Origin: Levilactobacillus yonginensis | Lineage (GTDB): Bacteria > Bacillota > Bacilli > Lactobacillales > Lactobacillaceae | Length of the DNA: 64,000 nt | NCBI RefSeq assembly: GCF_003946265.1 | Contig: NZ_RHNO01000001.1 | Location: 186,001 to 250,000 of the forward strand | Direction of reading: 5' to 3' | Shown: positions 14,094 to 55,365 of the stretch, one piece after another | Layout: every line of letters begins with the position of its first letter | Position numbering within the stretch: the stretch's first letter is position 1 | Made by a program: the position numbers and the translations under genes | The notes under the pieces: generated by a model | What the model was told of the DNA's origin: nothing | Database searches by the model: none | Seen by the model: only the letters and a program-made list of their open reading frames with translations

Positions 14094-14264
14094 GTGGCCC
14101 GGACTGACCCACAGTGTGGGGACCACCTGCGGCCTGGGGAGCGGTCCTTCGGCTCGACTTGAAGCCTCGTAAAGTTCGACGAGTCTCCAAGCTCGTCCCA
14201 CGTCATCGATTGGCCAATTCAGCCAATCAATGACGTTAGCACTGCGTGAATCAGTCCGGACCAC
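14094..14264 (-). repeat. Long-stem structured repeat, copy 1 (minus orientation)
   Basis: The closing stem pairs GTGGCCCGGACTGA (14094-14107) with TCAGTCCGGACCAC (14251-14264) with one bulge. Inside are a long hairpin with arms GATTGGC/GCCAATC near 14205-14235, a CTTGAAG...CTCCAAG hairpin (about 14158-14193), and a GGACC...GGTCC hairpin (about 14118-14145). Read on the minus strand it shows the family core: GGACGAGCTTGGAGAC, GGCTTCAAGTCGAGC, GGACCGC and CCCCACA. It starts about 33 nt after the stop of paralogue 4. Confidence 0.75.
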
Positions 14265-14483
14265 CTACGACTACTATTGGTGAGTTAACGTAACTTAGCT
14301 TTCGTGATGAACTGGATTGTGCTAGATGGTCATGTTTGGATATGGATAGAGATGAACCCTTATCACTGGTAGTTTGTTGGGGCAGTTATTTAGCTGAGCC
14401 ATTGTTAAAGTAATCAAGTTTTCGCAGCTGAACTGGGTGAAACCTTTTTAACCTGTTGATCCGTGTAAGATTGTTGATCTAGC

Positions 14484-14672
14484 GTAGCCGGAGGTTGCCA
14501 GGGCGGGGGCCGGCCGTGTCGGTGTTATCTGACCGGGTTTTTGGTCAGATAACACGGGACGAGCTTGGAGACCCGCAGGGGTTTCAGCGGGGCTTCAAGT
14601 CGAGCCGGAAGCCCGTACTTTGGCTGCAGGCGGTCCCCACAGCAGGCCTCCGCCCTGGCGGCCGGAGGCGGC
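14484..14672 (+). repeat. Long-stem structured repeat, copy 2 (plus orientation)
   Basis: The closing stem pairs GCCAGGGCGG (14497-14506) with CCGCCCTGGC (14650-14659), extended by GGTT/GGCC wobble pairs. The first inner hairpin is nearly perfect (GTGTTATCTGACC with GGTCAGATAACAC). The second has CCCGC...GCGGG under CTTGGAG/CTTCAAG. The core GGCTTCAAGTCGAGCC and the closing CCCCACAGC match copies at 37.6 and 54.2 kb. It also shares the outer GTAGCCGGAGGTTGCCAGGG start. Confidence 0.78.
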
Positions 14673-14703
14673 CGTTCACCAGATTCCCCAAACCAATACA
14701 AAC

Positions 14704-14756
14704 TAAAAAAACAGGTTCCAACTACGCGCACTTCAAACGCTGGTTGGAACCTGTTT
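14704..14756 (-). terminator. Terminator of oppA (minus strand)
   Basis: AAACAGGTTCCAA pairs with TTGGAACCTGTTT over a loop of about 22 nt. On the minus strand it is followed by a T-run, 75-125 nt after the oppA stop. Confidence 0.82.
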
Positions 14757-14829
14757 CTTCTATATTAATACGTTTATACAAGAGGGGGGTGTTAGGGACT
14801 GAATCGAATCGTTTGGTAGCGGTCGTCGA

Positions 14830-16473
14830 TTACTTGGCGATGTAGGTCGTCTTGAAGTCGTAAGGCACACCGGCACCGTTGTACACGATGCTCTTAACGC
14901 TGCTGCGTAACAGTTGTGATTTAGCAGCTTGGTACAGTGGAATCGTTCCCTGGTCGTTGATCAGCACTTTTTCAGCCTTGACCAGCTTGTTCCAACGCGT
15001 CGTTGGCTTGTTGCCGTCTTGGTTTTCAGCTTCGTCGAGGAGTTTATCAAATTGGGTGTTCTTCCAACCAGTCGTGTTGTAACTGGAGTTGGCTTCGAAG
15101 ACGTCCAAGAAGTTGATTGGGTCGGCGAAGACAGATTGCCAGCCGGCTAAGGTCAGTTCGTAGTTCCCGTTGTTTTGTTGGGTAATCAATTGCACGTAAG
15201 GCACCGTCTTGATGGTGACCTTAACGTTTGGTAACTTTTCGAGGGAACTTTGAACAAATTCAGCGGTTTGCTTGCTGGTGTCGGTGTCGGAAACAGACAG
15301 GGTCACGTCGAGCTTCTTGTCACCAGTTTGCTTCAAGCCTTTGGCTAACAGGCTCTTAGCTTGGTTCAAGTTGTAAGAAACGCCGGACTTCACGTAGGCT
15401 TCTTTGTTGAAGGCCTCACCAGTCTTAGGGTTGTTGCCCATGCCAGCTGGGACGAAGCCTTTGGAAGCAATTGAACCATCTTGCAGAACGTCGTTGACCA
15501 ATTGGTTGCGGTCGATGGCTAAGGAGAGGGCTTTACGAACGTTGGTGTTCTTAAAGGCGGCTACTTTCTTTTGGTTCAAATCCAACCGTTGGGAACCAGT
15601 AGGGAGGCGTTTAACGAAGTCCTTACTGTTCTTGTTGTTCTTGATTTGTTGGCCACTTAAGAGTGTTTCATCGGTCTTCTTAGCATTGTACAGGTTGTAG
15701 CTAGTCGTCGTGGATTCGGTCACTTGTTCGTTGATCTTGTCCAGGTGAACGGCTTGCTTGTCCCAGTAGGTCTTGTTCTTAGCCAATGTCCAGGACTTGC
15801 CGGTCCCGTTCCACTTGGTCAAACGGAATGGGCCGTTGTAGACCGTGGTAGCGGAGCTGGTCCCATACTTCTTCCCAAACTTGTTGACGGCACTTTCGTT
15901 CAATGGGTAGAAGAGGGGCCAAGCCAGTAATTTCTTGAAGTAGGAAACAGGTTTAGTCAGTTGCACGGTCAGTTTGTATTTGCCATCGGCCTTGATACCT
16001 AAAGCACTGAGCGACTTCTTTCCCTTGTTGACGGCTTCGGCGTTCTTGACCTGATAGAGGTAGAAGGCGTCTTGCGAAGCGGTCTTAGGATCCAGCGTCC
16101 GTTGCCAGGAATAAACGAAATCCTTGGCGGTCACGGTGTCACCGTTGGACCACTTGGCACCCTTGCGTAAGTTGAAGGTGTAAGTCTTGCCGCCGTTAGT
16201 GACCTTGGTGCTCGTGGCCAGGGCGTTGGCGGGAACGCCTTTACTGTTCAAACGGTAAAGACCTTCCTGCGTGTTCTGCAAGACTGTGAAACTCAGGGTA
16301 TCGGTAGCTTGCGCCAGGTCGGAGGAGGCGAGTTCGGAAGACTCCGTCCAGTTCAACTCCTGCTTGGCGGCATACTTGCCGGTGGAACTACTACTGCTAG
16401 ACTGGCTCCCACAACCGGCTAACGTTAATCCAATAACTGCTGCAACTGCTAAAACCGTTCCCTTTTTCTTCAT
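14830..16473 (-). CDS. oppA: Oligopeptide ABC transporter substrate-binding lipoprotein
   Basis: A 547-residue extracellular binding lipoprotein. The signal peptide and lipobox LAGC (Cys about residue 21) are followed by a Ser/Gly linker and the SBP_bac_5 fold, with recognisable stretches such as EGLYRLNSKGVPANALATS, FNLRKGAKWSNGDTVTAKDFVYSWQRTLDPKT and GWQSVFADPINFLDVFEANSSYNTTGW. It delivers peptides to an Opp permease, but no permease or ATPase genes are adjacent, so it is an orphan binding protein. An Asp-type T-box leader (16496-16755) precedes it, linking expression to tRNA-Asp charging. Start ATG 16473 has AGGAG upstream. Confidence 0.93.
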   Translation of the reverse strand: MKKKGTVLAVAAVIGLTLAGCGSQSSSSSSTGKYAAKQELNWTESSELASSDLAQATDTLSFTVLQNTQEGLYRLNSKGVPANALATSTKVTNGGKTYTFNLRKGAKWSNGDTVTAKDFVYSWQRTLDPKTASQDAFYLYQVKNAEAVNKGKKSLSALGIKADGKYKLTVQLTKPVSYFKKLLAWPLFYPLNESAVNKFGKKYGTSSATTVYNGPFRLTKWNGTGKSWTLAKNKTYWDKQAVHLDKINEQVTESTTTSYNLYNAKKTDETLLSGQQIKNNKNSKDFVKRLPTGSQRLDLNQKKVAAFKNTNVRKALSLAIDRNQLVNDVLQDGSIASKGFVPAGMGNNPKTGEAFNKEAYVKSGVSYNLNQAKSLLAKGLKQTGDKKLDVTLSVSDTDTSKQTAEFVQSSLEKLPNVKVTIKTVPYVQLITQQNNGNYELTLAGWQSVFADPINFLDVFEANSSYNTTGWKNTQFDKLLDEAENQDGNKPTTRWNKLVKAEKVLINDQGTIPLYQAAKSQLLRSSVKSIVYNGAGVPYDFKTTYIAK

Positions 16474-16495
16474 CCCAAAACATCTCCTAAAATAA

Positions 16496-16755
16496 AAATC
16501 GTCCTTATGTAATCTCTACATAAGGACGATTTCACTCGCGGTGCCACCTTGTTTTATGGGGGACTCGCGCCCACCATCTCCGTAACTTCTGTTGCCAAAA
16601 GTCGGAAGCGGTAACGGGCTTCATGTCGAACAACCGGCTTGCACCAGCTGTTAGCTACCAGGCTCATCTTCGCTGCTCAGTTGTAAGCCACCTTTTCAGC
16701 TACCGGTGGTCTCTAGACTTAGCGTGAACAGCTACTCTTCCTGGTGATGCGTTCG
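16496..16755 (-). promoter_or_regulatory. T-box leader of oppA, specifier GAU (Asp)
   Basis: The minus strand carries the T-box sequence GGTGGCACCGCG (16537-16548) and a perfect terminator hairpin (16496-16532) followed by TTTTTATTTT, just before the oppA ribosome site. Stem I can be folded: ACCAGG/CCTGGT base, AAGAGTA on the 5' side, GCTGTTC/GAGCAGC above, and AGAGACCACCGG...GAAAAGGTGGC at the top. After GAA (16669-16671) the specifier position reads GAU (16666-16668), an Asp codon. The antiterminator bulge base is C, which fits the G discriminator usual for tRNA-Asp. AUG, one base further, would need an A discriminator and fits less well. Confidence 0.85.
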
Positions 16756-17021
16756 TGTATTTCTAATATGCCTCTAATAATAGCGAGGGGGCTGTGCTTT
16801 GTCAACCGTTGAATTGAAATTAGTTAAAATCCGGTATTACAGGATTTATAAAGAGTTTATAGAAGGAATCTGGGTGAAGCTGTTTGGAAATTATTTTATG
16901 AACTCATTGAATACTCATAATTTATATGGGAAATGACTATCGGGATAATTACTTAATAGACGGTGGTATCTAGCGGTTCAGCAGATAATAGACGAGGGAA
17001 ATGTCTGAGGATTTTGGTATA
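16756..17021. other. Gene-free AT-rich spacer between the T-box and EAL gene
   Basis: The minus-strand promoter of the oppA T-box transcript should lie in about 16770-16850. Nothing else recognisable was seen: no coding frame and no strong hairpin. Confidence 0.4.
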
Positions 17022-17073
17022 AAAAAATAGAGACTCGTCTGTATCCAGATGGATGTCAGAACAAGTCTCTATG
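17022..17073 (-). terminator. Terminator of the EAL gene
   Basis: Minus-strand TAGAGACTTGTTCTGACATC pairs with the complementary stretch ending GAGTCTCTA and is followed by seven T residues. Confidence 0.85.
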
Positions 17074-17089
17074 ATGATTTAAGAGCGGA

Positions 17090-17749
17090 TTACTCAGCGC
17101 AGTAAGGTACCGGTTTACTATAAAAATACCCCTGTGTCATCTGAGCATTGTATTGTTGGGCCAGGGCGACGTCGTCCTCATTCTCAACGCCTTCGACGGT
17201 CAGGTCCAGTTGGTACATGTCGGCAATTTTACGCCAAGCATTCAGACTGTCCATGAGATCTGCTTGCCGATGTTGGAGCCGGAAGTTTTGCATGGCAAAC
17301 TTAATGCTATCCATAAACGGTAGGGCTGCCTGAACCGCCGGGCACCATTGATTGTCAGTGCCCACGTCGTCTAGACTCAATTGGATGTGGAAGCTCCGGT
17401 ACAGTGGTACATAGCGGTGCAGCTCAGCCAGTGATGGCGTTTCCGTCAGTTCAACGGTCAATTGGAGATGCTTGATTGATTTTTTAAGATGGATCATGTG
17501 CCCAATAGTCTGGGGATCCATAAATTGTTTGCGATTTAGGTTAAATGAAATTTCAGGATTGTCGGGATGGTCCTTCAGGATATTCGTAATCTCTTGATAG
17601 GACAAAGAGACTTGCTGGTCCATCGGTAGGGCCGTGAAATCAGTTGGTGTGACCCAATAGTCGTGGCAGTACGAACGTAATAACAGCTCGTAGCCCGCTA
17701 ATTTTTGTGTGACCGCGTTAATTTGCGGCTGAACGAAGAATCGATACAT
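17090..17749 (-). CDS. EAL-domain protein, candidate c-di-GMP phosphodiesterase
   Basis: A 219-residue stand-alone EAL domain. The residues used for metal and c-di-GMP binding are largely kept: Glu21 (GYELLLR replaces the EAL signature), Asn70/72 (SFNLNRKQF), Glu100 and Glu103 (VELTET), Asp127-Asp128 (SLDDVGTDN instead of DDFGTGY), Lys150 (IKFA), Glu186 (TVEGVEN) and Gln206 (QGYFYSKP). The loop after the Asp pair is degenerate, so activity is plausible but not certain. No GGDEF or other sensory domain is attached, and no cyclase gene is nearby. Cytoplasmic. Confidence 0.85.
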   Translation of the reverse strand: MYRFFVQPQINAVTQKLAGYELLLRSYCHDYWVTPTDFTALPMDQQVSLSYQEITNILKDHPDNPEISFNLNRKQFMDPQTIGHMIHLKKSIKHLQLTVELTETPSLAELHRYVPLYRSFHIQLSLDDVGTDNQWCPAVQAALPFMDSIKFAMQNFRLQHRQADLMDSLNAWRKIADMYQLDLTVEGVENEDDVALAQQYNAQMTQGYFYSKPVPYCAE

Positions 17750-17930
17750 TTAGAATAAAACCCTCTTTCCCGTTGCACTCTAGGGCTAAACGGTAGAGTC
17801 CAGTATACAGCATCACCAAATTTATTTACAGGCCAAATGGTATAAGTCGTCCCTTATTTTGTCCGTCAATTTCTCCGAACTGTCCCGTGGTTTACCCAAA
17901 CGTGAGTTTCTTCACTGGTTATTCGGGCAC

Positions 17931-17957
17931 TTACATAAGTTACATTACTTACAAAAC
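17931..17957 (+). promoter_or_regulatory. Three 9-bp direct repeats upstream of the AEC carrier
   Basis: TTACAT (17931), TTACAT (17940) and TTACAA (17949) recur at exactly 9-bp steps, with AAG, TAC and AAC between. Location before an AEC-dehydrogenase operon whose downstream neighbours encode a CitA/CitB-type system suggests a response-regulator site. This is inference. Confidence 0.4.
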
Positions 17958-18033
17958 TTTCGATATGTATATTAATGAGCAAAAGGAAGATAATATGGAA
18001 CTATCATATAGATTAATCATGGAGGCGACAAGA

Positions 18034-19107
18034 ATGAGCGTGCTTAAAGCAGTTGAATCTACGTTCACAAACGCAGCAATTATTAGTTCCATTACTTCTA
18101 CCATTTTCATTATCCTATTAGGGTTCTTCCTCCGTCGGCGGGGAACCTTCGGCGAAAACTTTGGAAAGGTTTTGACCAAAGTTGCCCTGAGTGTGGCTAT
18201 CCCAGCACTGGCCTTTAATTCATTCATGCAACCCATGGATGGTGATGCCTTCAAGCAAGGTATGGGCGTCTTAGTATGGGGGATTGTGATTTATATTCTT
18301 TTGATTTTCGTTACCCCATTTATGTACCAACGTTACGTTAAGGGAGAACGTGAAGTCTTAGCTATCTTAACCACTTTCGGTTCAACCACTTTCTTCGGTA
18401 TTCCTATCGTTGGGGCCGTTTACGGTGCCAAGGGTGTTATGTACAGTTCCATCTTCAACATCGGTTACCGGATCTTCCTTTACTCTTACGCCTACATTAA
18501 GATGTCTGGCTTGAAGATGGAAGGTAAGAACATCAAGAAGATGTTCGCCAACCCAATCGTTATCGCAACTTTCTTAGGTCTGTTCATGTGGCTCGGCCAA
18601 CACTTGGTTCCTCAAGTAACGGTCCACGCCGCCCTCAACGGGGTTCAACAAACGGGCATGACGACCGTGGCTTTCTACCGAATCGACCAAACGGCCCTTT
18701 GGCTCTACAAGCCACTGACTTACTTAGCTAACTTGTCTTCACCATTAGCTTGGTTGGCAATTGGTGTTACCTTAGGATCAATTTCCTTCAAGGACGCTGC
18801 CGAGGACAAGACGCCTTGGTACTACGCCTTCAACAAGGTTATCATCGTGCCATTATTGAACTTGATTCTGCTTTGGGTCCTCGACATTACGGGTATCCTG
18901 CCACTGAGCTTCACGGCCGTTGCAACGATTGTTGTCATGATGGCAACGCCAACTGCCGCCGTTGCTTCCGCTTACGCTATTAGCTTTGACCGTGAAGCCG
19001 TTATGTCTTCCAACGCGTCCTTTATCTCGACCATCTGTGCCGTGGTAATGATGCCAATCTGGATTGCTATCTTGACGGTTATCAACGGTTTGGGTATTTT
19101 CCACTAG
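18034..19107 (+). CDS. AEC family (auxin efflux carrier-type) organic acid permease
   Basis: About 357 residues from ATG 18034, chosen because ggagg lies 8 nt upstream; upstream in-frame ATGs (17887, 17995) are less well placed. Ten membrane helices are expected in two five-helix halves: GFFLRRRGTFGENFGKVLTKVALSVAIPALAFNSF in the first and TAVATIVVMMATPTAAVASAYAISFDREA in the second, the latter typical of malate permease-like AEC members. Substrates in lactic acid bacteria include malate and related hydroxy acids. It is followed 32 nt later by a D-2-hydroxyacid dehydrogenase gene, suggesting uptake or efflux of its substrate or product. Confidence 0.87.
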   Translation: MSVLKAVESTFTNAAIISSITSTIFIILLGFFLRRRGTFGENFGKVLTKVALSVAIPALAFNSFMQPMDGDAFKQGMGVLVWGIVIYILLIFVTPFMYQRYVKGEREVLAILTTFGSTTFFGIPIVGAVYGAKGVMYSSIFNIGYRIFLYSYAYIKMSGLKMEGKNIKKMFANPIVIATFLGLFMWLGQHLVPQVTVHAALNGVQQTGMTTVAFYRIDQTALWLYKPLTYLANLSSPLAWLAIGVTLGSISFKDAAEDKTPWYYAFNKVIIVPLLNLILLWVLDITGILPLSFTAVATIVVMMATPTAAVASAYAISFDREAVMSSNASFISTICAVVMMPIWIAILTVINGLGIFH

Positions 19108-19139
19108 AAGTTTAATGAAAGAAAAGGAGTGCTTTTAAA

Positions 19140-20144
19140 ATGGTAAAAATTACGTCCTACGGTGTTCGGCCAATTGAACGGCCTTACTTTGATGAATTGA
19201 ACAAGTATGACTTTGAAATGACCTACGTTGAAGACCTCTTAACTCATGACAACGCCGAAGCATCTAAGGGTGCTGACGCCGTGTTGGTTCGTGGGAACTG
19301 TGTTGCCGACCGTCAGAACTTAGAAAAGTTTGCCAGCTGGGGCATCAAGTACGTTTTCACCCGTTCCGTTGGATTTAACCACATGGACCTGCAGGCTGCC
19401 GCTGATTTAGGCATCGAAATGGCTCGAGTACCAGCCTACTCCCCATACGCCGTTGCCGAATTAGCCTTTACCTTGGGCATGACCCTTTTCCGTCACGTAA
19501 ACTTGGGCATTAGTCAAACGCGCCAAGCTGATTTCACCATCTCCCCAGCAATGTTCAGTAAGGAAATCCACACGGCCACCGTTGGTATCGTTGGTATCGG
19601 CCGGATCGGTTACACGGAAGCTAAGCTGTACAAGGCTTTAGGTGCCAAGGTTGTGGCTTACGACCCATACCCATCTGACGCTGCCAAGGAATTAGCTGAA
19701 TTGATGGAATTACCAGATTTGCTTAAGCAAAGTGACATTGTTTCCATTCACGTGCCTTACTTCCCAGGCAAGAACGAAAACTTGGTCGACGACACCTTCG
19801 TTTCTCAAATGAAGAAGGGCGCCGTATTGATCAACACCGCGCGTGGTGAATTGTCCAACATTCCAGCCATCTTAAAGGGCTTGAACGACGGTCAAATCGA
19901 CGGTTACGGTGCCGACGTTGTGCAAGACGAAGTGAACATCTTAGGTAAGAAGTTTGACAGCGTTGACGCTGTGCCTAACCAAGAGGTTCAAGACCTGTTG
20001 CGGGCTAACCCTAAGGTCCTGATTACACCACACGTTGGTTCTTACACGGAACCAGCTTTGCAAGACATGATCAGTATCAGTTACGATAATTTCCACGATA
20101 TTTTGACGACGGGTGCTACTAAGAACGCCATTCACGCTAAATAA
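19140..20144 (+). CDS. NAD-dependent D-2-hydroxyacid dehydrogenase (D-LDH/HicDH family)
   Basis: A 334-residue cytoplasmic oxidoreductase. The NAD-binding motif is VGIVGIGRIGYTEAKLYKALGAKVVAYDP. The catalytic Arg lies in NTARGELSN, Glu in ADVVQDE and His in TPHVGSYTEPAL, all intact. Length and motif layout match fermentative D-lactate or D-2-hydroxyisocaproate dehydrogenases, which reduce 2-oxo acids with NADH. The neighbouring AEC carrier and the two-component system point to dedicated metabolism of an imported organic acid rather than general glycolytic lactate formation. aaaaggag precedes ATG 19140. A strong terminator follows. Confidence 0.9.
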   Translation: MVKITSYGVRPIERPYFDELNKYDFEMTYVEDLLTHDNAEASKGADAVLVRGNCVADRQNLEKFASWGIKYVFTRSVGFNHMDLQAAADLGIEMARVPAYSPYAVAELAFTLGMTLFRHVNLGISQTRQADFTISPAMFSKEIHTATVGIVGIGRIGYTEAKLYKALGAKVVAYDPYPSDAAKELAELMELPDLLKQSDIVSIHVPYFPGKNENLVDDTFVSQMKKGAVLINTARGELSNIPAILKGLNDGQIDGYGADVVQDEVNILGKKFDSVDAVPNQEVQDLLRANPKVLITPHVGSYTEPALQDMISISYDNFHDILTTGATKNAIHAK

Positions 20145-20161
20145 GCAATCACCATTAAACG

Positions 20162-20192
20162 GGTGCGGAGGACTTTCCTCCGCACCTTTTTT
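20162..20192 (+). terminator. Terminator of the AEC-dehydrogenase operon
   Basis: GGTGCGGAGG/CCTCCGCACC perfect 10-bp stem with a five-base loop and a T6 tail. Confidence 0.93.
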
Positions 20193-20357
20193 GGCGTCAT
20201 CAGGCGGGGTGTCGCAGGCAGTGATTGCGTAGCTAAACCGGTTGCCCCTAAACGTATCCAATTGAAAGGGGATTAACGGCCACCGTTTCGAGTAGCCTTA
20301 ACAGTTGCCTAACGCAACCGATTTCAGTATATTAGGAGGAGTGAGGGGACATTGTTG

Positions 20358-36003: not shown

Positions 36004-36012
36004 GTTGATTGT

Positions 36013-36188
36013 CCGCTACGGCGGCCAGGATGGCGCCGGCTGTGGGGACGCTTCAGCCAAACGGCGGGCTTCTCGCTCGCTTTGAAGCCACGAAGACCAC
36101 GTGTCTTCAAAGACGCCCATGGCCTAGGTCGGCCTAAAACGCCAACCAAGGCCATTTTCACTGCCGACGCCATCCTGACCACCTGCGC
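36013..36188 (-). repeat. Long-stem structured repeat, copy 3 (minus orientation)
   Basis: Closing stem GGCCAGGATGGCG (36023-36035) with CGCCATCCTGACC (36168-36180). Read on the minus strand it has GTCTTTGAAGACACG...CGTGGCTTCAAAGCGAG, GCCGTTTGGC and TCCCCACAGCC, matching the core of other copies but with different stem sequences. It begins about 10 nt after the padR stop. Confidence 0.7.
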
Positions 36189-36379
36189 TTAGATAGTCTG
36201 TAGATTGTCGATGGCTTTTAATCATTAATAAATGGTTTTAATAATAGCTAATTTTGAGGGTCTGGAGTAACAATTCCAGGCCCCTTTCTATAGCTAATCC
36301 CCCCCACTGAAACGTGGAGCCAAAGATAGGTGAATTTAAGATTGATACTGTATACTAGCTATGAACAGGAGGAGATTAC

Positions 36380-37201
36380 ATGCAAAAATGGGGAAAATGG
36401 TGGCTCGCCGCTTTGCTGGGGTTAGCCGCAATCGGCGCTAGCGGGGTCACGGCTCACGCGGCGACCAGCCAATACTTAACCGGGAATACGGGTTACGTGC
36501 GGACTAAAAAGGCCATGTACGTGGGTATTTATCAGAAGAAAAATGGCAAGTATCACCAGGTCAAGGTGAAGAAAAATACGCTGCTGAACGCTGAGGGTAC
36601 CATGTCAACGGGGGCGGCCAGCGGTGGCGTGAAGACGACGGCCCTGTTCACCTATGGCGTTGTGAACTATGCGCGGGCTAATCAGCTGAAGTATAAAGAA
36701 CGGGCCACGATTCCGTTTACCAAGGCAAATTTCAAACGGGTCAGTTTGAAGGCACCTATTCGCACGCAAATTTTCAAGGTGGGAAAGGGGTACACTGCCA
36801 ATAGTGACAACTCCAATGCTGCACCCACGCCCGGCTTTTTCCTGACGCTGGATAACTACTTGCAGTACTATAGTAAGGCGCAGATGGCTAAGGATTCCGA
36901 ACTCATGAGCCAACGGTGGGCGGGCACGAGTCGAAACTACAAGCCAACGCGTTCGGTGAAAGCGACGAAGGTCACCGTGAAGGGCAACACGACAACGGTT
37001 GACTACGCTAAGGCATTGAAGGGACTGCCCAACAAAAAAGTCGGCAAGCACCATTACCGCCTGACGATTACGAATAAGAAGACGAAGGGTAGCTTGGGGA
37101 TGCTGCCAATGGACGATGTTTTTGATCTGTACGGTACTTGGACCAACTACACCGTCAATGGTAAGCCCTACTTCTTTGGCGAGTTAGAATCCGGGGACTA
37201 G
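36380..37201 (+). CDS. Secreted protein of unknown function
   Basis: 273 residues with a signal peptide (MQKWGKWWLAALLGLAAIGA...TAHA, cleavage near residue 29). The mature protein is basic (many Lys) and Tyr/Thr-rich. It has an N-terminal region resembling the short basic repeats of SLAP-like or surface proteins (GYVRTKKAMYVGIYQKKNGKYHQVKVKKNTLL), but no cell-wall anchor. I do not recognise the C-terminal domain (about 140-273, ending DVFDLYGTWTNYTVNGKPYFFGELESGD). aggagg precedes ATG 36380. Monocistronic with terminator. Confidence 0.75.
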   Translation: MQKWGKWWLAALLGLAAIGASGVTAHAATSQYLTGNTGYVRTKKAMYVGIYQKKNGKYHQVKVKKNTLLNAEGTMSTGAASGGVKTTALFTYGVVNYARANQLKYKERATIPFTKANFKRVSLKAPIRTQIFKVGKGYTANSDNSNAAPTPGFFLTLDNYLQYYSKAQMAKDSELMSQRWAGTSRNYKPTRSVKATKVTVKGNTTTVDYAKALKGLPNKKVGKHHYRLTITNKKTKGSLGMLPMDDVFDLYGTWTNYTVNGKPYFFGELESGD

Positions 37202-37338: not shown

Positions 37339-37577
37339 AGTCCGCGTAAATGGATAAGTCAAATTTGGCAGGATTCTCAGTGAATTTTGAACTTTCATCG
37401 GTATTAGGGTGACAAATTCCTATCGAATTTCGTTAGTAAAAGTATCAGTATTTTTAACTGACCGACTGGTGAGAAATGACAGTTACTTTTAATGCTCAAG
37501 TAATGATTAATAGTAAACGGTTGAGAGTCACCAACATTGATAATTAAAAATAACTGACGCTGAAATAGTCGACTAAT

Positions 37578-37768
37578 GTAGCCGGAGGTTGCCAGGGAGG
37601 GTGCCGGCTGTGTCGACGGTGTTGACGGGCGTTCTGTGGCCGTCTACAGCGTGGGGCGGGCTTGGAGATTCGGTGGGCTGCCGAAGCTTCAAGCCGAGCT
37701 GGAGGACCGGTTCTCAGGCCGGAAGCGTCCCCCACAGCGGGTGCCCGCCCTGGCGGCCGCAGGCGGCC
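37578..37768 (+). repeat. Long-stem structured repeat, copy 4 (plus orientation)
   Basis: Starts GTAGCCGGAGGTTGCCAGGG as copy 2. Closing stem GCCAGGGAGGG (37591-37601) with CCCGCCCTGGC (37744-37754); inner CTGTG/CACAG; hairpins GACGG...CCGTC, TTCGG...CCGAA under GCTTGGAG/GCTTCAAGC, and GGACCGG...AAGCGTCC. Core AAGCTTCAAGCCGAGCTGG and CCCCCACAGC. The stem bases differ from copies 2 and 8 in paired fashion. Confidence 0.78.
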
Positions 37769-37983
37769 ATTTACTATATCTCAATAAAAAGTTAGGTTGG
37801 GTAACTAATGAAGGGCCTAAACACTGGTCTGGCAGATAAAATCGATTATGATAGAGTCGACGGCAAAGGTTAACTTGACGGTTGTTAAGCAATAATCTTG
37901 TCAGTTGTTGGTAGGTTAGAAAAGGTAAGTGGGTAGTTAGATATGTGGATTATCAAGTTACCCAGTTTTAGGTATGCTGTACC

Positions 37984-40260: not shown

Positions 40261-40401
40261 TGAATGATTTACTCGGGAATCTGGGGTAGGAAAGTTATCT
40301 CTGGTTGAATTCGAGATAGCTGTTCAGGACAGTTAACACTTTAACAGTGAAAGAGGATTAGCCTGGTCATGGCTGATAACGGTGCTGAACGTTAGCCGTG
40401 A

Positions 40402-40534
40402 GGTCGGTAAATATGGGCTCAGCCGTGGAACTGCCTTAGCGCGGTGGGTTTCCGTGGTTAGGCAGAGCCGATCTTCAAGACCGCACTTTGGCTTGAAGTC
40501 GCGCTCACAGCGTTCCAGCCCATATTTACCGGCC
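40402..40534 (+). repeat. Long-stem structured repeat, copy 5 (divergent)
   Basis: An 18-bp closing stem (40402-40419 with 40517-40534) has a single G-T wobble. Inner hairpins are CTGCCTTA...TTAGGCAG and TCTTCAAG...CTTGAAGTC, then GCTCACAGCG. The architecture is that of the family, but sequence has diverged outside the CTTGAAG/ACAGC elements. It interrupts the operon between the two esterase genes. Confidence 0.6.
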
Positions 40535-40595
40535 GGTAAGGCGCCAATTTAAACAATCATAAAAAGCGAGTGCAATGAAGAGAGGGGTAATCAAG

Positions 40596-44004: not shown

Positions 44005-44014
44005 GTGACTGAAG

Positions 44015-44581
44015 TTAAAAGTTGAAAGGCCCACCATGCCTGATACAGCAAGGATTGGGTATTGGAGGTTAGTCAGACATAGTGGGAAAGTTCCGCCTTA
44101 CCGTTCGCCAAATTTGGACTGGAACGCGGTGGGAAGGACGGGACAAGCCAAAGGGCGGTCTTGCCCCTCGCTTGAAGCCGCAAAGCACGTTTTCAAGTCG
44201 CCATTTTCAAGAAAATCACTTGAAAATCCCACGGCTGAGTCCAAAGTTGACTCACTCTCGGCTACTTAGTGTCGCGCCAGTAATATTGCATAAGCGCTGT
44301 TATCCAGGTAGTTAAACTAGCTTAGTTTCCAAGCACCCATTTAACCGGAGGTGGTCAGAGGTGGAGCCAGCTGTGTCGACGGTGTTAGCCGATTTTCGGC
44401 TTACAGCGTGGGACGTGTTTGAAGACTGGTGGTTTTCCAGGCTTCAAACCGAGCCGGAGGACCGCTTCTCAGGCCGGAGGCGTTCCCCACAGCAGGCGGA
44501 ATCTCTGACCTCCGCAGGTGGAAGTCAATAACGTCTTGCTATTCTTGGTTTGATAACGGTTTTCGGCCTTTCAACCTTTAG
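44015..44581. mobile_element. MITE-like composite element E1 with two structured units
   Basis: 567 bp. Left end TTAAAAGTTGAAAG, right end CTTTCAACCTTTAG: terminal inverted repeats as in E3 with two changes. The left half (about 44085-44275) is a minus-oriented structured unit; the right half (about 44345-44530) is a plus-oriented one with GGTCAGAG/CTCTGACC closing stem, GGCTTCAAACCGAGCCGGAGGACCGC and CCCCACAGC. No transposase frame of useful length. No target duplication could be matched here. The right end supplies the stop codon of the adjacent minus-strand gene. Confidence 0.8.
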
Positions 44582-46161: not shown

Positions 46162-46295
46162 AAAAAGCCTGAGAAATATTGCCGAATTAACGACAATATC
46201 TCCCAGGCTTTTTCCCTTCCGTGGCCGTAGCCGCGGCTACGGGTTCTCTCTCGGACCAGACCCATGGTAGTGGCGGAACCCTAGAGAACTTTCTT
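46162..46295 (-). promoter_or_regulatory. Guanidine-I (ykkC) riboswitch with terminator
   Basis: Minus-strand sequence contains the class hallmarks: CTAGGGTTCCG, CTGGTCCGAGAG, then the CACGGAAGGGA element and AAAAAGCCTGGGAG. An overlapping terminator (46162-46213) pairs AAAAAGCCTGGGAGATATTG with its complement and ends in a T-run. Guanidine binding should prevent termination and turn on the SMR pair. Confidence 0.95.
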
Positions 46296-47492: not shown

Positions 47493-47510
47493 GAGAGGGA
47501 GAACTAAATT

Positions 47511-48512: not shown

Positions 48513-48535
48513 TCACGTAAAGGTAAGGGATAATC

Positions 48536-49309: not shown

Positions 49310-49340
49310 CGACTGAAAAAAGAAAGAGGCGTCCTTTAAC

Positions 49341-49733: not shown

Positions 49734-49737
49734 GTAA

Positions 49738-49780
49738 GTTAGTGGTCACGCAATTCTGGGGGGATGGCGTGACCACTAAC
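49738..49780 (+). terminator. Hairpin after the VOC gene
   Basis: GTTAGTGGTCACGC with GCGTGACCACTAAC, a perfect 14-bp stem, but without a T-run. It probably protects or ends the operon transcript. Confidence 0.6.
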
Positions 49781-49872
49781 CCTTCAAGTGAAACGTTCAG
49801 CGGGAAATTTCACGAGGACTGGCCCGGCGCTGCCAGCAAAGGGCTAGCTTGATTCCTATGTGAATAACCAGC

Positions 49873-49907
49873 AAAAAAAGTTGTGGCTACGGCCGCAACT
49901 TTTTTTA
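49873..49907. terminator. Bidirectional terminator
   Basis: AAAAAAAGTTGTGG with CCGCAACTTTTTTT around a short loop. Confidence 0.82.
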
Positions 49908-49971
49908 TCGTCAATTTTATTAGGTTGAAACGTGCAATCTCAACGTTACTTAACCTCGATAGACAAACAAT

Positions 49972-50543
49972 CTAAAGGTTGAAAGTACTGAAACACCCAC
50001 TATGCTTGATATAACAAGGATTGGGTGTAGGGGTTTAGTCAAATATGGCGGGAAATTGTTGCCTTACCGTTCGCCAAATTTTGCCTGGAACGCGGTGGGA
50101 AGGACGGGGCAAGCCAAAGAGCGGTCTTGCCCCTCGCTTGAAGCCGCAAAGCACGTCTCCAAGTCGTTCAAGAAAATCACTTGAAAATTCCACGGCTGAG
50201 TCCAAATTTGACTCACTCTCGGCTACCTAGTGGCGCGCCAATAATATTGCGTAAGTGCTGTCATTTAGGCATCTAAGCTAGCTTATTCTCCAGGAACCTA
50301 TTTAACCGGAGGTGGTCAGAGGTGGAGCCAGCTGTGTCAACGGTGTTAGCCGATTTCGGCTTACAGCGTGGGACGGGTTTGAAGACTGGTGGTTTTTCCA
50401 GGCTTCAAACCGATCCGAAGGACCGCTTTTCAGGCCGGAGGCGTTCCCCACAGCAGGCGGAATCTCTGATTGCCTCCGGTGGCTGGGTGAGACGAATTTA
50501 AGTCGATAATGCTTTACTAGTCTTGGCTTGATAACGGTTTTCG
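49972..50543. mobile_element. MITE-like composite element E2 (right end lost)
   Basis: Left inverted repeat CTAAAGGTTGAAAG at 49972 is followed by the same two-unit layout as E3 (minus unit about 50055-50225, plus unit about 50305-50490). Similarity to E3 stops at about 50543, before the expected right repeat. It ends about 10 nt from the stop codon of the MocR-type gene on the minus strand, so the 3' repeat has been replaced by or lost into host sequence. Confidence 0.78.
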
Positions 50544-50553
50544 CACGCTGTTA

Positions 50554-51960
50554 TTACTGCAATTTTTGCGTTAAAACTTGTTGCAGGCTGGCGTCCATCC
50601 CAGCGAAGTTGAACCGGAAGGATTGCTTAGTGGCACCGTAAATGGGGCCAGGCTTAACCAGGATTTGGTTAGCCAACAGGTCGTTGAAGATGTTGGGGTC
50701 GGCCTGAGTGACCCACAGATAGAAGCCGCCCCGGGGTGTGATAAATTCCCAGTTGGGTCGCTCTTGGCGAAAGATAGCCGTCACGGCTTCACGGCGGGTG
50801 GCCAGTTCGGCGGTGAGCTTGGTAATTTCAGCGGTAAAGGTGTCGCTACTGAGGGCCAAGTGTGCCATGACCTGGGCCAACATGCTGGGTACGATGTCGA
50901 GCTTTTTTTGAACCTGGAGCAACCGTTGGCCAATGGCTTGCGGTGCGACGATCCAGCCCAGACGGGTCGTGGAACCCAGCAGTTTGGAGAGGGAGCTGAT
51001 GTAAATGACGTTCTCAGGCGCCAGAGACTTGAACGTTGGGACGACATCTTCCTTGGGTACGAGCCAGCCAAACACATCATCCTCAATGATGGCAACTTGG
51101 TAGGACTGGCACAGGTGCAGGATTCGTTGGCGTTCGGCTAGCGGCATGACCCGACCGGTTGGGTTTTGGAAGGTGGGATTAAGTATTAATAACTTAATTC
51201 GATGTTTAAGAATTACGTCCTCCAGTACGTCGAGGTCTAAGCCATTAGGTGTCGTTGGGACAGCGTAAGTCTTTACACCGATGGTCTTAAAAATGGCACT
51301 GGAGTTGAAGTAGGAGGGCGAGGCAAATGCCACAGCGTCGCCCATTTGTAGGAGACTTCTGAGTATTAATAACAAAGACTGTTGGGCACCACCAGTAATA
51401 ATTAACGACTGGTTGGTGGTCTTAAACTGGTTACGCTGCGTGTGGAGTCGACTAATTGTATGAATCAATGGCTGATAGCCCGCGTCCTGCTCCTGTTTCT
51501 GAGCCATTAAGAAACTTCGCCAGTCCATCTGAAGGGAGCCAAGTTGCGGAATTAAAGCCATTGGTAGTTCGTTAGCAGCACCGTCGATTAGATGGCCCTT
51601 GTCCAACGCCCGTGCTTGGAGGAGTTTACTCTGATAGGTGTCATCACGAGAAGAACCCGCGTTTTCCAGGAAGACATTCCAGTTTACTTTAGTTGTGAGT
51701 GAATTAACTTGTGGGAGCTCGGAAATAAAGGTACCGCTTCCAGTTTTCTTGACCAGGAGGCCACTCGCGGTGAGTTCCATGAAGGCCCGAGTCACGGTCG
51801 ACCGGTCAACGTGAAGTAACTTCGCCAGGTCTCGTTCTGCGGGGAGTCGTTGTCCGGGAAGTAGCTTGTCCTCTTGGATGAGGCGCTTAACCAGTTGGGT
51901 GATGGCGAGGTATTTTGGCTTAATGGGTGGGAGATCTTCGTGCCAATTAATCATGAGCAA
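50554..51960 (-). CDS. MocR/PdxR family GntR-aminotransferase regulator
   Basis: 468 residues. N-terminal GntR winged helix (KPKYLAITQLVKRLIQEDKLLPGQRLPAERDLAKLLHVDRSTVTRAFMELTASGLL, about 12-75) fused to a fold-type I aminotransferase domain with NPTFQNPTG, IIEDDVFGW and SSLSKLLGSTTRLGW (PLP-binding Lys in SLSKL). Divergently placed from a pyridoxal-kinase-type gene and an ECF S component, so it is most likely a PdxR-type sensor of PLP controlling B6 salvage. TCATG 51960 region: ATG 51960 or 51954. Confidence 0.93.
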   Translation of the reverse strand: MLMINWHEDLPPIKPKYLAITQLVKRLIQEDKLLPGQRLPAERDLAKLLHVDRSTVTRAFMELTASGLLVKKTGSGTFISELPQVNSLTTKVNWNVFLENAGSSRDDTYQSKLLQARALDKGHLIDGAANELPMALIPQLGSLQMDWRSFLMAQKQEQDAGYQPLIHTISRLHTQRNQFKTTNQSLIITGGAQQSLLLILRSLLQMGDAVAFASPSYFNSSAIFKTIGVKTYAVPTTPNGLDLDVLEDVILKHRIKLLILNPTFQNPTGRVMPLAERQRILHLCQSYQVAIIEDDVFGWLVPKEDVVPTFKSLAPENVIYISSLSKLLGSTTRLGWIVAPQAIGQRLLQVQKKLDIVPSMLAQVMAHLALSSDTFTAEITKLTAELATRREAVTAIFRQERPNWEFITPRGGFYLWVTQADPNIFNDLLANQILVKPGPIYGATKQSFRFNFAGMDASLQQVLTQKLQ

Positions 51961-51988
51961 TTTTCCTTTCTTTTGCCCCCAGTATAGT

Positions 51989-52016
51989 AATTGGCTGGAT
52001 TAAAAACAAGCCAATT
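51989..52016. promoter_or_regulatory. Inverted repeat operator in the mocR-pdxK divergent promoter
   Basis: AATTGGCT (51989-51996) and AGCCAATT (52009-52016), spacing 12 bp, with a related ACCAAT at 52042. Candidate PdxR-type binding site in the shared promoter region. Confidence 0.6.
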
Positions 52017-52072
52017 GGCCGTTGTGATTTTTTCACAAAAAACCAATACTAGAACGTGTAGGAGGAGATCAC

Positions 52073-52873
52073 ATGGAAAACGTCTTAACGATTGCTGGAT
52101 CAGACAGTCTGGCCGGCGGTGGTATTCAAGCCGATTTGAAAACGTTTGAAGAGCTCAACGTCTTTGGCGTGAGTGCTCTGACCAGTGTGGCGAGCATCAC
52201 GCCAACCAACTTAACCCTTCATCAGTTACCCACAGCGGTAATCGTTGACCAGTTGACGTCGATTCTGACGCAATTGCCGATTCATTTCGCTAAGACGGGT
52301 CTGCTGGGTGATCTGGCCACCTTGGAGGTCGTGTGTGCACAGCTCGAGTCAACCACGACACAGGTGGTGGTCGACCCGGTCCTGGTCTTTAAGGAAGGGC
52401 AGTCACAATTACAAGCAACTTACATAACCGCCGTCAAGCAACGGCTACTCCCGTTGGGTTACGTGACAACGCCAAATTTGGCGGAAGCGGCGCAACTGAG
52501 TGGGATGACCATCACCAACAAGACGGAGATGGTCGAAGCGGCCAAACGAATTCAGGCAACGGGTTGCCCCAACGTGGTCATCAAGGGTGGTAATCGGTTG
52601 ACTGGGGACGTGGCCAGCGATTATCTGAGAATGGGCAGTGTAGATTATTGGTTTGAGAGTCCAAAGATCGATCGGCAGACGACCGATGGTGCTGGGTGTA
52701 CCTTCTCCGCGGCAATTACTGCGCAACTGGCGAAGGGCCAAGCGTTACCGGAAGCTGTCGAGGTGGCCAAGCGGTTCGTCCACATGGGAATCACCCATGG
52801 TGTAAGCATTAGCGAGCGGCTAGGCAGTGTTTGGCAGGGAGCAAGTCGACAATGGGAGGAAGAGACAAAATGA
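52073..52873 (+). CDS. pdxK: Pyridoxal/hydroxymethylpyrimidine kinase-type (PdxK/ThiD-like)
   Basis: 266 residues. The ribokinase-like signatures are VLTIAGSDSLAGGGIQADLKTFEELNVFG (substrate side) and DGAGCTFSAAITAQLAKG (anion hole, catalytic Asp). The ThiD-like kinases of Firmicutes often act on pyridoxine, pyridoxal and pyridoxamine. The divergent PdxR-type regulator and the ECF component favour vitamin B6. It overlaps the next gene by 4 nt. ggaggag precedes ATG 52073. Confidence 0.9.
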   Translation: MENVLTIAGSDSLAGGGIQADLKTFEELNVFGVSALTSVASITPTNLTLHQLPTAVIVDQLTSILTQLPIHFAKTGLLGDLATLEVVCAQLESTTTQVVVDPVLVFKEGQSQLQATYITAVKQRLLPLGYVTTPNLAEAAQLSGMTITNKTEMVEAAKRIQATGCPNVVIKGGNRLTGDVASDYLRMGSVDYWFESPKIDRQTTDGAGCTFSAAITAQLAKGQALPEAVEVAKRFVHMGITHGVSISERLGSVWQGASRQWEEETK

Positions 52874-53370
52874 AACGTGGATCATTAAGAGAAAACACTT
52901 TAGCAGCTGTGCTGATTGCCATGACCGTGGCGTTGTCAATTTTGGTCGTTATCCCCATTCCCGCAACCAAAGGGATGGTGACACTGTGTGAGGTGGGTAT
53001 CTACACCAGTGCCATTCTTTACGGCGGCCGGATGGGTTTTCTAGTCGGTGGTGCCAGTGGGTTCCTGATCGATATCTTAACGGGTTATCCAGTTTGGTGC
53101 CTGTTCTCGTTGGTCATTCACGGGACGCAAGGCTTGGCAGTCGGGTATTTTACCCCACAAAACAACAAGTCAATCAAAACAATGATTGTGCCACTACTGA
53201 TTGGCAGCGTTATCATGGTCGTTGGGTACTTTTTTGCCACGGCCTTACTGTTTGGCTGGCCCGCGGGGTTAGCTTCAATCTTCAGTAATATTATTCAAGT
53301 TGGATTCGGCATGGTGGTCACGTTGTCAATCGTGGGCAGCCTTGCCAAGTTGAAACCAAATTTAGTTTAG
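52870..53370 (+). CDS. ECF transporter S component, pyridoxine-type
   Basis: About 166 residues from ATG 52870, which overlaps the kinase stop as ATGA. Six hydrophobic helices. The S-component motif region ends in LYGGRMGFLVGGASGFLIDILTGYPVWCLFSLVIHG. Small S components use a shared EcfAA'T energising module. Context (PdxK, PdxR-type) predicts uptake of a B6 vitamer, as for PdxU. The energising module is not in the window. Confidence 0.87.
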   Translation: MKRGSLRENTLAAVLIAMTVALSILVVIPIPATKGMVTLCEVGIYTSAILYGGRMGFLVGGASGFLIDILTGYPVWCLFSLVIHGTQGLAVGYFTPQNNKSIKTMIVPLLIGSVIMVVGYFFATALLFGWPAGLASIFSNIIQVGFGMVVTLSIVGSLAKLKPNLV

Positions 53371-53390
53371 TCTAGGGAGTGTGTGTTGGT

Positions 53391-53951
53391 ATGTTGGATA
53401 TTAATTTGGATGAGTTGAAACAGCAGTTAGCTAAAATTGTACAAGACGTCTTGGACGCCGCAAAATTACACCGAGGAGACCTCTTCGTCTTAGGGTGCTC
53501 AACTAGTGAAATCGTCGGGGGCCACATCGGTAAGAATTCCGATTTGGATGTTGGGATGGCCGTTATCGAGACCCTACGGAGTAAATTAGAACCACTTGGC
53601 GTTCATTTAGCTGTCCAGGGGTGTGAACACATCAACCGGAGCGTGGTTGTTGAACGTGAAGTGGCAGAGAAGAAAGGCTTTGAAATTGTCACGGTTGTGC
53701 CAGCTATGCACGCTGGCGGGGCTGGCTCCATCGCCGCCTTCAAGCAATTCAAGGATCCCGTTGAAGTTGAACATATCGTTGCACAAGCCGGGTTGGACAT
53801 TGGTGACACGTCAATCGGGATGCACGTCAAGTTCGTTCAGGTTCCCGTTCGTCCATCACAATTGGAATTAGGCGGCGCACACGTTACGGCACTACGGTCA
53901 CGGCCAAAGTACGTCGGCGGCCCTCGTGCCAACTACGACCCAATCCAGTAA
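53391..53951 (+). CDS. DUF436 (YwlG) family protein
   Basis: About 186 residues (ATG 53391; GTG 53379 possible). Matches the TIGR01440/DUF436 family: [79 protein letters not shown] and [23 protein letters not shown]. The family has no known reaction; in Bacillus subtilis ywlG lies beside glyA, a PLP enzyme gene. Here it closes a B6 salvage operon, 20 nt after the S component. Suggests a role linked to B6 or glycine metabolism. Confidence 0.9.
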
Positions 53952-54030
53952 GATTTGCCGTCTTCGGCTGGCAGTCTGTGAGCGATTTTATTACGATGTT
54001 ATTTTAACTAAATTGAAACTATACAAATAG

Positions 54031-54080
54031 AAAGAGGATTGAGACAACTGGGATTACCTAGCTGTTTCAATCCTTTTGCG
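54031..54080 (+). terminator. Terminator of the B6 operon
   Basis: AGGATTGAGACA with TGTTTCAATCCT, followed by TTTTG. Confidence 0.75.
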
Positions 54081-54169
54081 TTAATGTGGATATTTGATAG
54101 TTTTAAGAAATAAGATATTGTGGTTATTTTTATCAACGCGGCATAAGTTTTTTTGCAGTTAACCCAATC

Positions 54170-54358
54170 GTAGCTGGAGGTTGTCAGGGTGGGGCCAGCT
54201 GTGTCGGTGGCGTTAGCTCGGTGATTTACCGAGGTTACGCCACGGGACGAGCTTGGAAACACGCGTTTCTGTCGTGGTTTCAAGTCGAGCTGGAGGACCG
54301 GTTCATAGGCCGGAAGCGGTCCCCACAGCAAGCCGGCACCCTGACAACCGGAGGCGGA
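54170..54358 (+). repeat. Long-stem structured repeat, copy 8 (plus orientation)
   Basis: Closing stem GGTTGTCAGGGTG (54179-54191) pairs perfectly with CACCCTGACAACC (54338-54350). Inner stem CTGTG/CACAG. Hairpins: GTGGCGTTAGCTCGGT with ACCGAGGTTACGCCAC, GCTTGGAAAC with GTTTCAAGTC, and GGACCG with CGGTCC. Core GGTTTCAAGTCGAGCTGGAGGACCG...CCCCACAGC. It ends 3 nt before the stop codon of the convergent HicB-like gene. Confidence 0.8.
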
Positions 54359-54360
54359 AA

Positions 54361-54612
54361 TTATAGTGTAATTGTGATAGCAAAGACGTGCTGGTTAGCA
54401 GTGAGCCGCCAATGCTTGGGGTCCTGATCCATGGCAACAGCTGGATGACACATAAGCTGCTGGATGTCTGCTTTGGCTGCGACGGTCAGTAGTTCTACAC
54501 TGGTTTCGCGGGTCGTTAGTTCGGGCAATGTAGGGGAAGTTGCCACGTAGTAGTGGCCCTCCTGGTTGTGGTATTCAGTCGCAATAATGGGGTAAACGGT
54601 CCGTTTTTTCAT
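54361..54612 (-). CDS. HicB-like orphan protein
   Basis: 83 residues from ATG 54612 (aagggagc upstream; a 9-codon upstream extension is unlikely). YPIIATEYHNQEGHYYVATSPTLPELTTRETSVELLTVAAKADIQQLM resembles the RNase-H-like fold of HicB antitoxins. No HTH or RHH DNA-binding tail and no HicA toxin gene are nearby, so it is probably an orphan or a non-TA relative. The stop codon abuts the structured repeat. Confidence 0.7.
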   Translation of the reverse strand: MKKRTVYPIIATEYHNQEGHYYVATSPTLPELTTRETSVELLTVAAKADIQQLMCHPAVAMDQDPKHWRLTANQHVFAITITL

Positions 54613-54771
54613 AATAAGCTCCCTTGGTTGTTTGGCCAAGTATACCCGTTGGTTGCGGGAAAACCAAGTAAAATTGTAAACGTTTACATTTTTTTTACAA
54701 TGAAATCAATCGTCGCATAATTGTATTTGGCAATCAGGGATTGCAGTGCTTGATGATTCAACGTATATTAA

Positions 54772-55365
54772 CTAAAGGTTGAAAATACTGAAACACCCAC
54801 TATGCTTGATACAACAAGGATTGGGTATTGGGTTTTAGTCAGACATAGTTGGAAATTATCGCCTTACCGTTCGCCAAATTTGGACTGGAACGCGGTGGGA
54901 AGGACAGGACAAGCCAGAAGGCGGTCGTCCCCTCGCTTGAAGCCGCAAAGCACGTCTTCAAGTCACCATTTTCAAGAAATTCACTTGAAAATCCCCCGGC
55001 TAAGTCCAAATTTGACCCACTCTCGGCTACCTAGTGGCGCGCCAATAATTCTGAATAAGTACTGTCATTCAAGCATTTAAGTTAGCTTAGTTTCCAAGAA
55101 TCCGTTTAACCGGAGGAGGTTAGAGGTGGAGTCAGCTGTGTCGACGGTGTTAGCCGATTCTCGGCTTACAGCGTGGGACGTGTTTGGAGACTGGTGGTTT
55201 TTCCAGGCTTCAAACCGAGCCGCAGGACCGCTTTTCAGGCCGGAGGCGTTCCCCACAGCAGGCGGAATCTCTGACCGCCGCAGGTGGCTGGGTGAGGCTA
55301 ATTTTAAGTCGATAACGCTTTTCTATTCTCGGTTTGATAACAGTTTCCGAACTTTCAACCTTTAG
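54772..55365. mobile_element. MITE-like composite element E3 with terminal repeats and 9-bp target duplication
   Basis: 594 bp between CTAAAGGTTGAAAATACTGAAAC at the left and its imperfect inverted copy at the right (ends at CTTTAG 55365). The flanks are GTATATTAA at 54763-54771 and GTATATTAA at 55366-55374, an exact 9-bp target-site duplication. Inside, a minus-oriented structured unit (about 54855-55030; stem CAAATTTGGACT/AGTCCAAATTTG, hairpin ATTTTCAAG/CTTGAAAAT) and a plus-oriented unit (about 55108-55292). No transposase. Typical of a non-autonomous element moved in trans. Confidence 0.9.

Follow-up and report, generated by a model that had tools for sequence, protein, structure and literature searches.

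The window analysed here, a 64,000-nucleotide stretch of the Levilactobacillus yonginensis genome (contig NZ_RHNO01000001.1, positions 186,001 to 250,000 of the forward strand), carries twelve units of a dispersed repeat that folds into a closing stem with two or three hairpins. The repeat family is real, structured and mobile and, as far as we searched, undescribed. Its structure is retained through covariation across ten genera while the sequence changes, and the stems of resident copies change more slowly than intergenic sequence. The reading that we prefer, with confidence and doubt in about equal measure, is that the units are dispersed, non-autonomous, hairpin-rich repeats similar to repetitive extragenic palindromes (REP) and bacterial interspersed mosaic elements (BIME), about five times the size of a REP and kept at gene borders.

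The folded unit is best described from its longer form, type A. In the consensus, the closing stem is approximately 20 bp long and has an internal loop, GGA/GGA, close to its foot. A CTGTG/CACAG step comes next, and the arms consist of hairpin 1, whose sequence varies, then a GGGAC/GTCCC stem, hairpin 2 (CGAGCTTG...CAAGTCGAG) and hairpin 3 (GACCG...GGC). Among the 34 own-genome copies from which the covariance model R1 was built, two-sided changes are found in 51 of 70 pairs, and 95.3% of paired cells can pair, compared with 83.0% after shuffling and 32-44% with slid partners. The cross-genus alignment A3, which was fitted to the model and comprises 44 rows (nine other genera and one own-genus row, two of the rows being strand echoes), has two-sided changes in 67 of 70 pairs, with 94.4% of cells paired versus 63.0% in shuffles. 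It should be noted that the only genome representing genus g47 in this alignment (G144) is one 4.5-kb contig whose match equals that of G220 (genus g19) in score and length. The equal units in these two genomes (L259 and L260) may reflect transfer or contamination, and one genus may rest on that.

The fold belongs to one strand. On the folding strand of the own copies there are 170 G-U cells versus 26 A-C cells (90 versus 26 after dropping columns whose commonest pair is G-U), the RNAalifold consensus of the opposite strand has 24 G-U and 69 A-C cells, and of 147 units, 140 have their lower minimum free energy (MFE) on the folding strand. This excess of G-U over A-C, together with the strand controls, shows that one strand is kept foldable, either as RNA or as single-stranded DNA.

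The family is abundant in its own genome, where a blastn search with one unit gave 41 matches and a covariance model at least 150 copies, the weakest among the matches listed having an E value of 6.5e-24. In 397,638 bases of own sequence the model gave 94 hits, of which 77 are units once 17 opposite-strand echoes are removed. Within this sample, contigs C2 and C56 were picked because they contain units, and contig C1 alone carries 25 units in 169 kb. Extrapolation from contig C1 gives about 400 copies per 2.7-Mb genome, roughly 3% of the genome. The density within the window, which an earlier note written from its letters alone had called unusual, is thus ordinary for this genome. The same note had taken the repeats for an unnamed structured long-stem family, a view that further copies in related genomes and the lack of an Rfam match were to support, and the outcome agrees with it. 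No unit in the window matched Rfam 15 at gathering thresholds (a search of four loci at E<=5 likewise gave nothing above the gathering score), and searches of open-licence literature turned up no account of this kind of family from Lactobacillaceae.

Beyond its own genome, matches to the model occur in 23 of the 24 genomes searched from the genus, the own one among them, and, in a family sample for which only 12 candidates were scored per genome, 45 of 201 genomes and 10 of 40 genera; none of 16 genomes from other families of the order matched. A pattern scan of named genomes found the family in Levilactobacillus tongjiangensis, L. mulengensis, L. lanxiensis, L. wangkuiensis, L. fuyuanensis and L. 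parabrevis, as well as in one uncultured Lactobacillus metagenome-assembled genome (MAG). Two further pattern-scan hits in unrelated MAGs (L092, L109) were set aside, having no model match. A distant blastn search of plasmids and phages with the unit at 54.2 kb gave no match, and in viral contigs one pattern returned 0 stretches and another 3, none with a model match. Copy number can be patchy within a genus: in genome G228, which belongs to another genus, 101 of 102 scored candidates match, versus 6, 4 and 3 matches in its congeners G161, G206 and G135.

Units and composite elements in the window

The twelve units comprise eight of type A (three hairpins, approximately 190 nt) and four of type B (two hairpins, approximately 160-180 nt), with MFE values of -78 to -122 kcal/mol for the units as cut. 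The motif GGCTTCAARYCGAGC, allowing up to 3 mismatches, occurs 16 times in the window, compared with 4.87 expected, and none of 100 shuffles reaches 16. Model R1 matches eleven units (E 5e-46 to 6e-9), and the other 6 of its 17 rows in the window are weaker opposite-strand echoes of these same palindromes. In the 54.8-kb element the left arm, which is the twelfth unit, escapes R1 even at E<=1 and can be recognised solely through its 76-89% identity to the 44.0-kb element. Units and elements are named below by their position in kb; TIR denotes a terminal inverted repeat.

14081..14275, minus strand: type A unit, forming the left half of a divergent pair (R1 171.3 bits, E 2.8e-42)
14483..14675, plus strand: type A unit, right member of the divergent pair (R1 175.3 bits)
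36008..36193, minus strand: type A unit, its 3' end lying about 5 nt beyond the stop codon of a PadR-type gene (R1 132.7 bits; unit core missing in G050)
37577..37770, plus strand: type A unit (R1 170.7 bits)
40391..40548, plus strand: type B unit, two hairpins (R1 54.2 bits, E 2.3e-12)
44014..44581, no strand: TIR element with a B-A divergent pair, left TIR degenerate (85-87% identity to the 50.0 and 54.8 copies)
44089..44266, minus strand: type B unit inside the 44.0 element (R1 47.3 bits, E 1.3e-10)
44340..44525, plus strand: type A unit inside the 44.0 element (R1 161.6 bits)
49972..50546, no strand: TIR element, right TIR lost, left end CTAAAGGTTGAAAG (limits recur within a few bases in several own and G049 matches)
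50055..50227, minus strand: type B unit inside the 50.0 element (R1 40.8 bits, E 6e-9)
50301..50486, plus strand: type A unit inside the 50.0 element (R1 139.8 bits)
54169..54361, plus strand: type A unit, single-unit insertion (R1 185.9 bits; 54169-54358 missing at the orthologous G050 site)
54772..55365, no strand: complete TIR element CTAAAGG...CCTTTAG with GTATATTAA on both flanks (absent from G050)
54854..55031, minus strand: type B unit inside the 54.8 element (repeat families D1/D3; limits transferred from the 44.0 copy)
55105..55291, plus strand: type A unit inside the 54.8 element (R1 151.3 bits)

All nine loci that the earlier note had grouped as one repeat do contain it, and its description needs three further amendments. 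Of its six stand-alone units, all present, those at 14.1 and 14.5 form a divergent pair. The common architecture holds as it was described, except that hairpin 3 (the GGACCG arm) is missing from the 40.4 unit and from the left arm of each paired element, which constitute type B. Its three paired elements do contain the repeat, but they belong to a discrete family of TIR elements. The 44.0, 50.0 and 54.8 loci are copies of this element, which is approximately 575-595 bp long, has the ends CTAAAGGTTGAAA and carries a divergent pair made up of one B unit and one A unit; copies elsewhere in the own genome and in G049 are about 84-92% identical to those of the window. Target duplications of 8-9 bp flank the copies (GTATATTAA at 54.8, TTACTTGA or GCGATAAA at others), and the 54.8 composite element has both the TIRs and the target duplication of a miniature inverted-repeat transposable element (MITE). 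Several other genus genomes match chiefly the core of the element, from B unit to A unit. The TIR element is a separate mobile entity bearing the units, for which we know no name.

Among other features of the window, the 273-aa protein encoded at 36380-37201, between the 36.0 and 37.6 units, has no Pfam match and, judged by eye, seems to have a signal peptide. Four successive open reading frames (ORFs) of 163-170 aa at 12017-14060 share a common repeat every ~520-530 nt and are apparently tandem paralogs; two were tested, neither with a Pfam match. A guanidine-I riboswitch (Rfam RF00442, 84.7 bits) lies at 46198-46295 on the minus strand.

Mobility, placement and constraint

Single units move. 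At the orthologous site in genome G050 the 54.2 unit is absent (...GCAGTTAACGCAATTATAG...), where the window reads ...CCCAAT, unit, AATTATAG..., and G049 holds a truncated copy. In G228, eight copies have only the unit in common and lie in unrelated flanks, seven of the eight being 86-91% identical to the query copy. The empty 54.2 site and these G228 copies indicate that the single unit is the mobile entity. In the own genome, single units with similar ends recur beside unrelated flanks. The 54.2 site has a 3-bp overlap, AAT, as a possible duplication. Across 147 units the 5' foot follows GTAG loosely (G in 75, T in 100, A in 131, G in 115), a foot that is not kept in several other-genus copies, and the unit is preceded by C-M-A-N. 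A second repeat family of approximately 168 bp (GAGTGGGACA...TTGTCCCA; L185:16817-16986, L188:6348-6516 and their G049 counterparts) also differs in presence or absence at the same sites among the own genome, G049 and G050.

The position of the units relative to genes was studied with gene calls from ORF heuristics, in 151 units from the own and other Levilactobacillus genomes that score at least 60 bits and were deduplicated by exact sequence; orthologs from near relatives are counted separately, as they also are in the sets of 147 and 149 units. The 3' end points toward a stop codon in 97 of these 151 distinct units, and in the own genome alone in 41 of 52, 13 of them within 35 nt. Distances and terminators were counted for 147 of the 151 units, which include 95 of the 97 facing a stop codon. 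None of the 45 stop-facing units within 35 nt has a terminator between gene and unit, and 12 have one beyond the unit; among the 50 that lie farther away, 27 have a terminator between gene and unit. In the 3' flanks of 149 units, 38 terminators read toward the unit and 14 away, compared with 3-7 in shuffles, and their T-runs mostly lie 10-40 nt from the unit. Neighbouring units are strongly ordered: within 700 nt in the 398 kb of own sequence there are 26 '-+', 3 '--' and 1 '+-' pairs, and all seven such pairs in other genera are '-+'. Inspected by eye, the spacers within pairs look unrelated from one locus to another, except in orthologous loci and TIR elements. Five 'far' divergent pairs were checked for genes carried between them as cargo, an idea that was rejected because four different gene sets lie there, two of the five pairs representing one locus of one genome; one of these genes resembles ruvA. 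Units from other genera face a stop codon in 19 of 35 cases, with weaker closeness than in Levilactobacillus.

Constraint on resident copies was measured in 54 comparisons at 36 own loci against G049 or G050; comparisons with more than 15 gaps, lost cores included, were omitted, and the values therefore describe surviving copies. Divergence is 5.2% in stems, 9.3% in loops, 12.5% in intergenic flanks and 6.6% in coding flanks, corresponding to a stem/intergenic ratio of 0.41 (95% interval 0.32-0.51) and a stem/loop ratio of 0.56 (0.45-0.71).

We propose that a trans-acting enzyme could recognise the fold of one strand, as single-stranded DNA or RNA, and copy the unit. After insertion, copies at stop codons and terminators may be retained as the hairpin acts in transcripts there. 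Because the folding strand in that placement would be the one transcribed by a polymerase entering the gene from outside, the most likely host function would be that of a border element, which would stop, destabilise or buffer read-through and antisense transcripts. Copies lying inside 3' untranslated regions (UTRs) would give 3'-end protection to the mRNA. Since strand preference is strong among paralogs and weak in resident copies, the data suggest two layers: propagation would depend on the fold of one particular strand, and once a unit has inserted, the integrity of its stems would matter. A more far-reaching version, which we consider unlikely, is that the units constitute a new class of dispersed bacterial RNA element and a rough counterpart of short interspersed elements (SINEs), with about 400 copies per genome, which an enzyme would move through a folded single-strand intermediate (RNA or single-stranded DNA). 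In this version Levilactobacillus would have taken the units over as border elements, and their RNA fold would stop antisense and read-through transcription from entering genes from outside.

Evidence against the preferred reading and alternative explanations

Several results weigh against REP-like repeats kept at gene borders. With regard to movement, 147 units do not show target duplications clearly more often than shuffled pairings do (the best register among many gives 7 versus 1.75 expected), and no mobilising gene was found among the Y1_Tnp and RVT_1 domains, Y1 loci and window proteins checked. With regard to retention, the unit core is gone in G050 at two units of contig C1, and the cores of further units of C2 and C56 are lost in G049 or G050; copies are therefore dispensable. 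With regard to placement, the 3' end is the one closer to a gene in 13 of 17 own solo units, at p=0.049. Terminator adjacency was seen in 1 of the 8 G228 copies and not in 33 other-genus units (7 read toward the unit, compared with 4, 5 and 7 for the remaining directions), so that border placement may be a Levilactobacillus feature; the terminator and border pattern may belong to older Levilactobacillus copies or to that lineage. Upstream of 149 units, strong promoter sites number 24 sense, 25 antisense and 21 in shuffles, without excess. With regard to the fold, two-sided changes in 3606 orthologous pairs preserve the pair in 21 cases and break it in 17 (9 and 14 in stop-facing units), and new changes are only weakly strand-specific, with 85 forming G-U and 64 forming A-C (ratio 1.33, 0.96-1.91). 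The slower change of stems is therefore no proof that the folding strand is under selection. Matched stems could also be produced by gene conversion or by repair templated on the hairpin. As a separate observation, where orthologs have lost the core of a unit, its outer parts are left, and some of these losses coincide with short repeats at the ends of the unit.

Four alternative explanations were weighed against this background.

1. The units are a purely selfish miniature transposon, spread by a trans-acting transposase and found wherever insertion is harmless. This alternative is possible, and clearly less probable than REP-like repeats kept at gene borders. The bursts in some species, such as the 101 of 102 scored candidates in G228 versus 6, 4 and 3 in G161, G206 and G135, are what such an element would produce, as are the tolerated loss of unit cores and the varied distances of the G228 copies from genes. 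However, stems of resident copies have diverged 0.41 times as much as intergenic sequence, and harm avoidance alone leaves the orientation of the units and their closeness to stop codons and terminators unexplained.

2. Each unit is a dispersed functional RNA gene, with its own promoter on the folding strand and a non-coding RNA product. The one-strand fold and the covariation in several genera would fit such a gene, whereas the upstream promoters are not in excess and the central segments of pairs look unrelated between loci, with the exceptions given above. We regard this explanation as improbable.

3. The units derive from an IS200/IS605-type insertion sequence (of the HUH, single-strand kind), and a Y1 or RAYT transposase moves them, as has been suggested for REPs. 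The loose 5' GTAG foot, the preceding C-M-A-N, the subterminal hairpins, the empty site ...CAAT/TATAG and the lack of a clear excess of target duplications are all consistent with this origin. Against it, Y1_Tnp has no match in 4 of the 15 genomes checked from the genus, which nevertheless have 47, 51, at least 63 and at least 63 unit matches; one of the four genomes is 72% complete. Nor does any of 15 Y1 loci, of which 11 come from the genus, contain a unit. Insertion linked to the lagging strand is reported as an IS200/IS605 trait, but there is no replication-strand bias on two chromosomes: with switch points set by GC skew, the leading strand carries 25 of 55 copies in G014 and 45 of 95 in G003 among the copies listed (55 of 115 and 95 of 138 matches, respectively). 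A split at half the chromosome length had given 35 of 55 (p=0.058) and 42 of 95 and was discarded, as GC skew places the switch points elsewhere. Overall, we give little credence to this derivation. A Y1 transposase or a reverse transcriptase as the partner was likewise rejected, neither being universal among the 15 genus genomes; RVT_1 is present in just 5 of the 15, which also speaks against a reverse-transcriptase-borne element such as a group II intron or retron. Pfam searches of 20 window proteins found no transposase.

4. All units are members of the TIR element (a DDE-type MITE), and single units are its broken remains. Three window loci are indeed copies of that element with 8-9 bp duplications; nevertheless, single units with similar ends and unrelated flanks in the own genome and G228, together with the 54.2 insertion without TIRs, make this highly improbable.

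Relation to known repeat families and significance

The Levilactobacillus family resembles the REP, BIME and REPIN repeats in being high-copy extragenic palindromes that form dimers and lie near gene 3' ends, and in having G-T pairing in stems (PMC3733652); the loose GTAG at the 5' foot may be a further parallel. Most convergent REPs are within 20 bp of both gene ends, and the placement of REPs in that source is similar to that of our units (PMC3733652). The units differ from REPs, which are single stem-loops of 20-40 bp (PMC3733652), in measuring approximately 140-200 nt and having a multi-arm junction with two or three hairpins. Close pairs also differ from those of REP and BIME in that 26 of 30 have the 5' ends inside (TT type in PMC3733652), and unlike GTAG-tagged REPs, no RAYT was found here. 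Since the units deviate from REPs in size and in the RAYT search, we class the family as a variant of the REP/BIME kind and not as a member. The hosts of GTAG repeats listed in PMC3733652 are Proteobacteria, Cyanobacteria, Chloroflexi and the PVC group, and its main text contains 'lactobacill' 0 times and 'firmicutes' 0 times.

Other parallels are found among ERIC/RU-1, YPAL/RU-2 and other MITE-like bacterial repeats, which are mostly intergenic and carry RNA secondary-structure motifs (PMC2229807) and measure about 100-170 bp where size is given (PMC2267715, PMC2759123). The present family is set apart from the ERIC and YPAL type by its multi-arm junction and its covariation in ten genera, and from MITE-like repeats by single units that show no TIR and no clear target duplication; it is the TIR element that has TIRs and 8-9 bp duplications of its own. 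The stem-loop families of PMC2267715 are likewise genome-wide structured intergenic repeats. The main text of that paper names Lactobacillus once, L. johnsonii being among 40 genomes, and one of its families is Lac-1, presumably from L. johnsonii.

The family thus offers a Gram-positive counterpart to REPs in which no RAYT was detected, and it makes testable the old question of whether extragenic palindromes are selfish or mark transcript borders. It also allows two time scales to be compared, that of the strand-specific fold among paralogs and that of the slower stems in resident orthologs. In these genera, a model of the family would benefit both genome annotation and RNA-seq.

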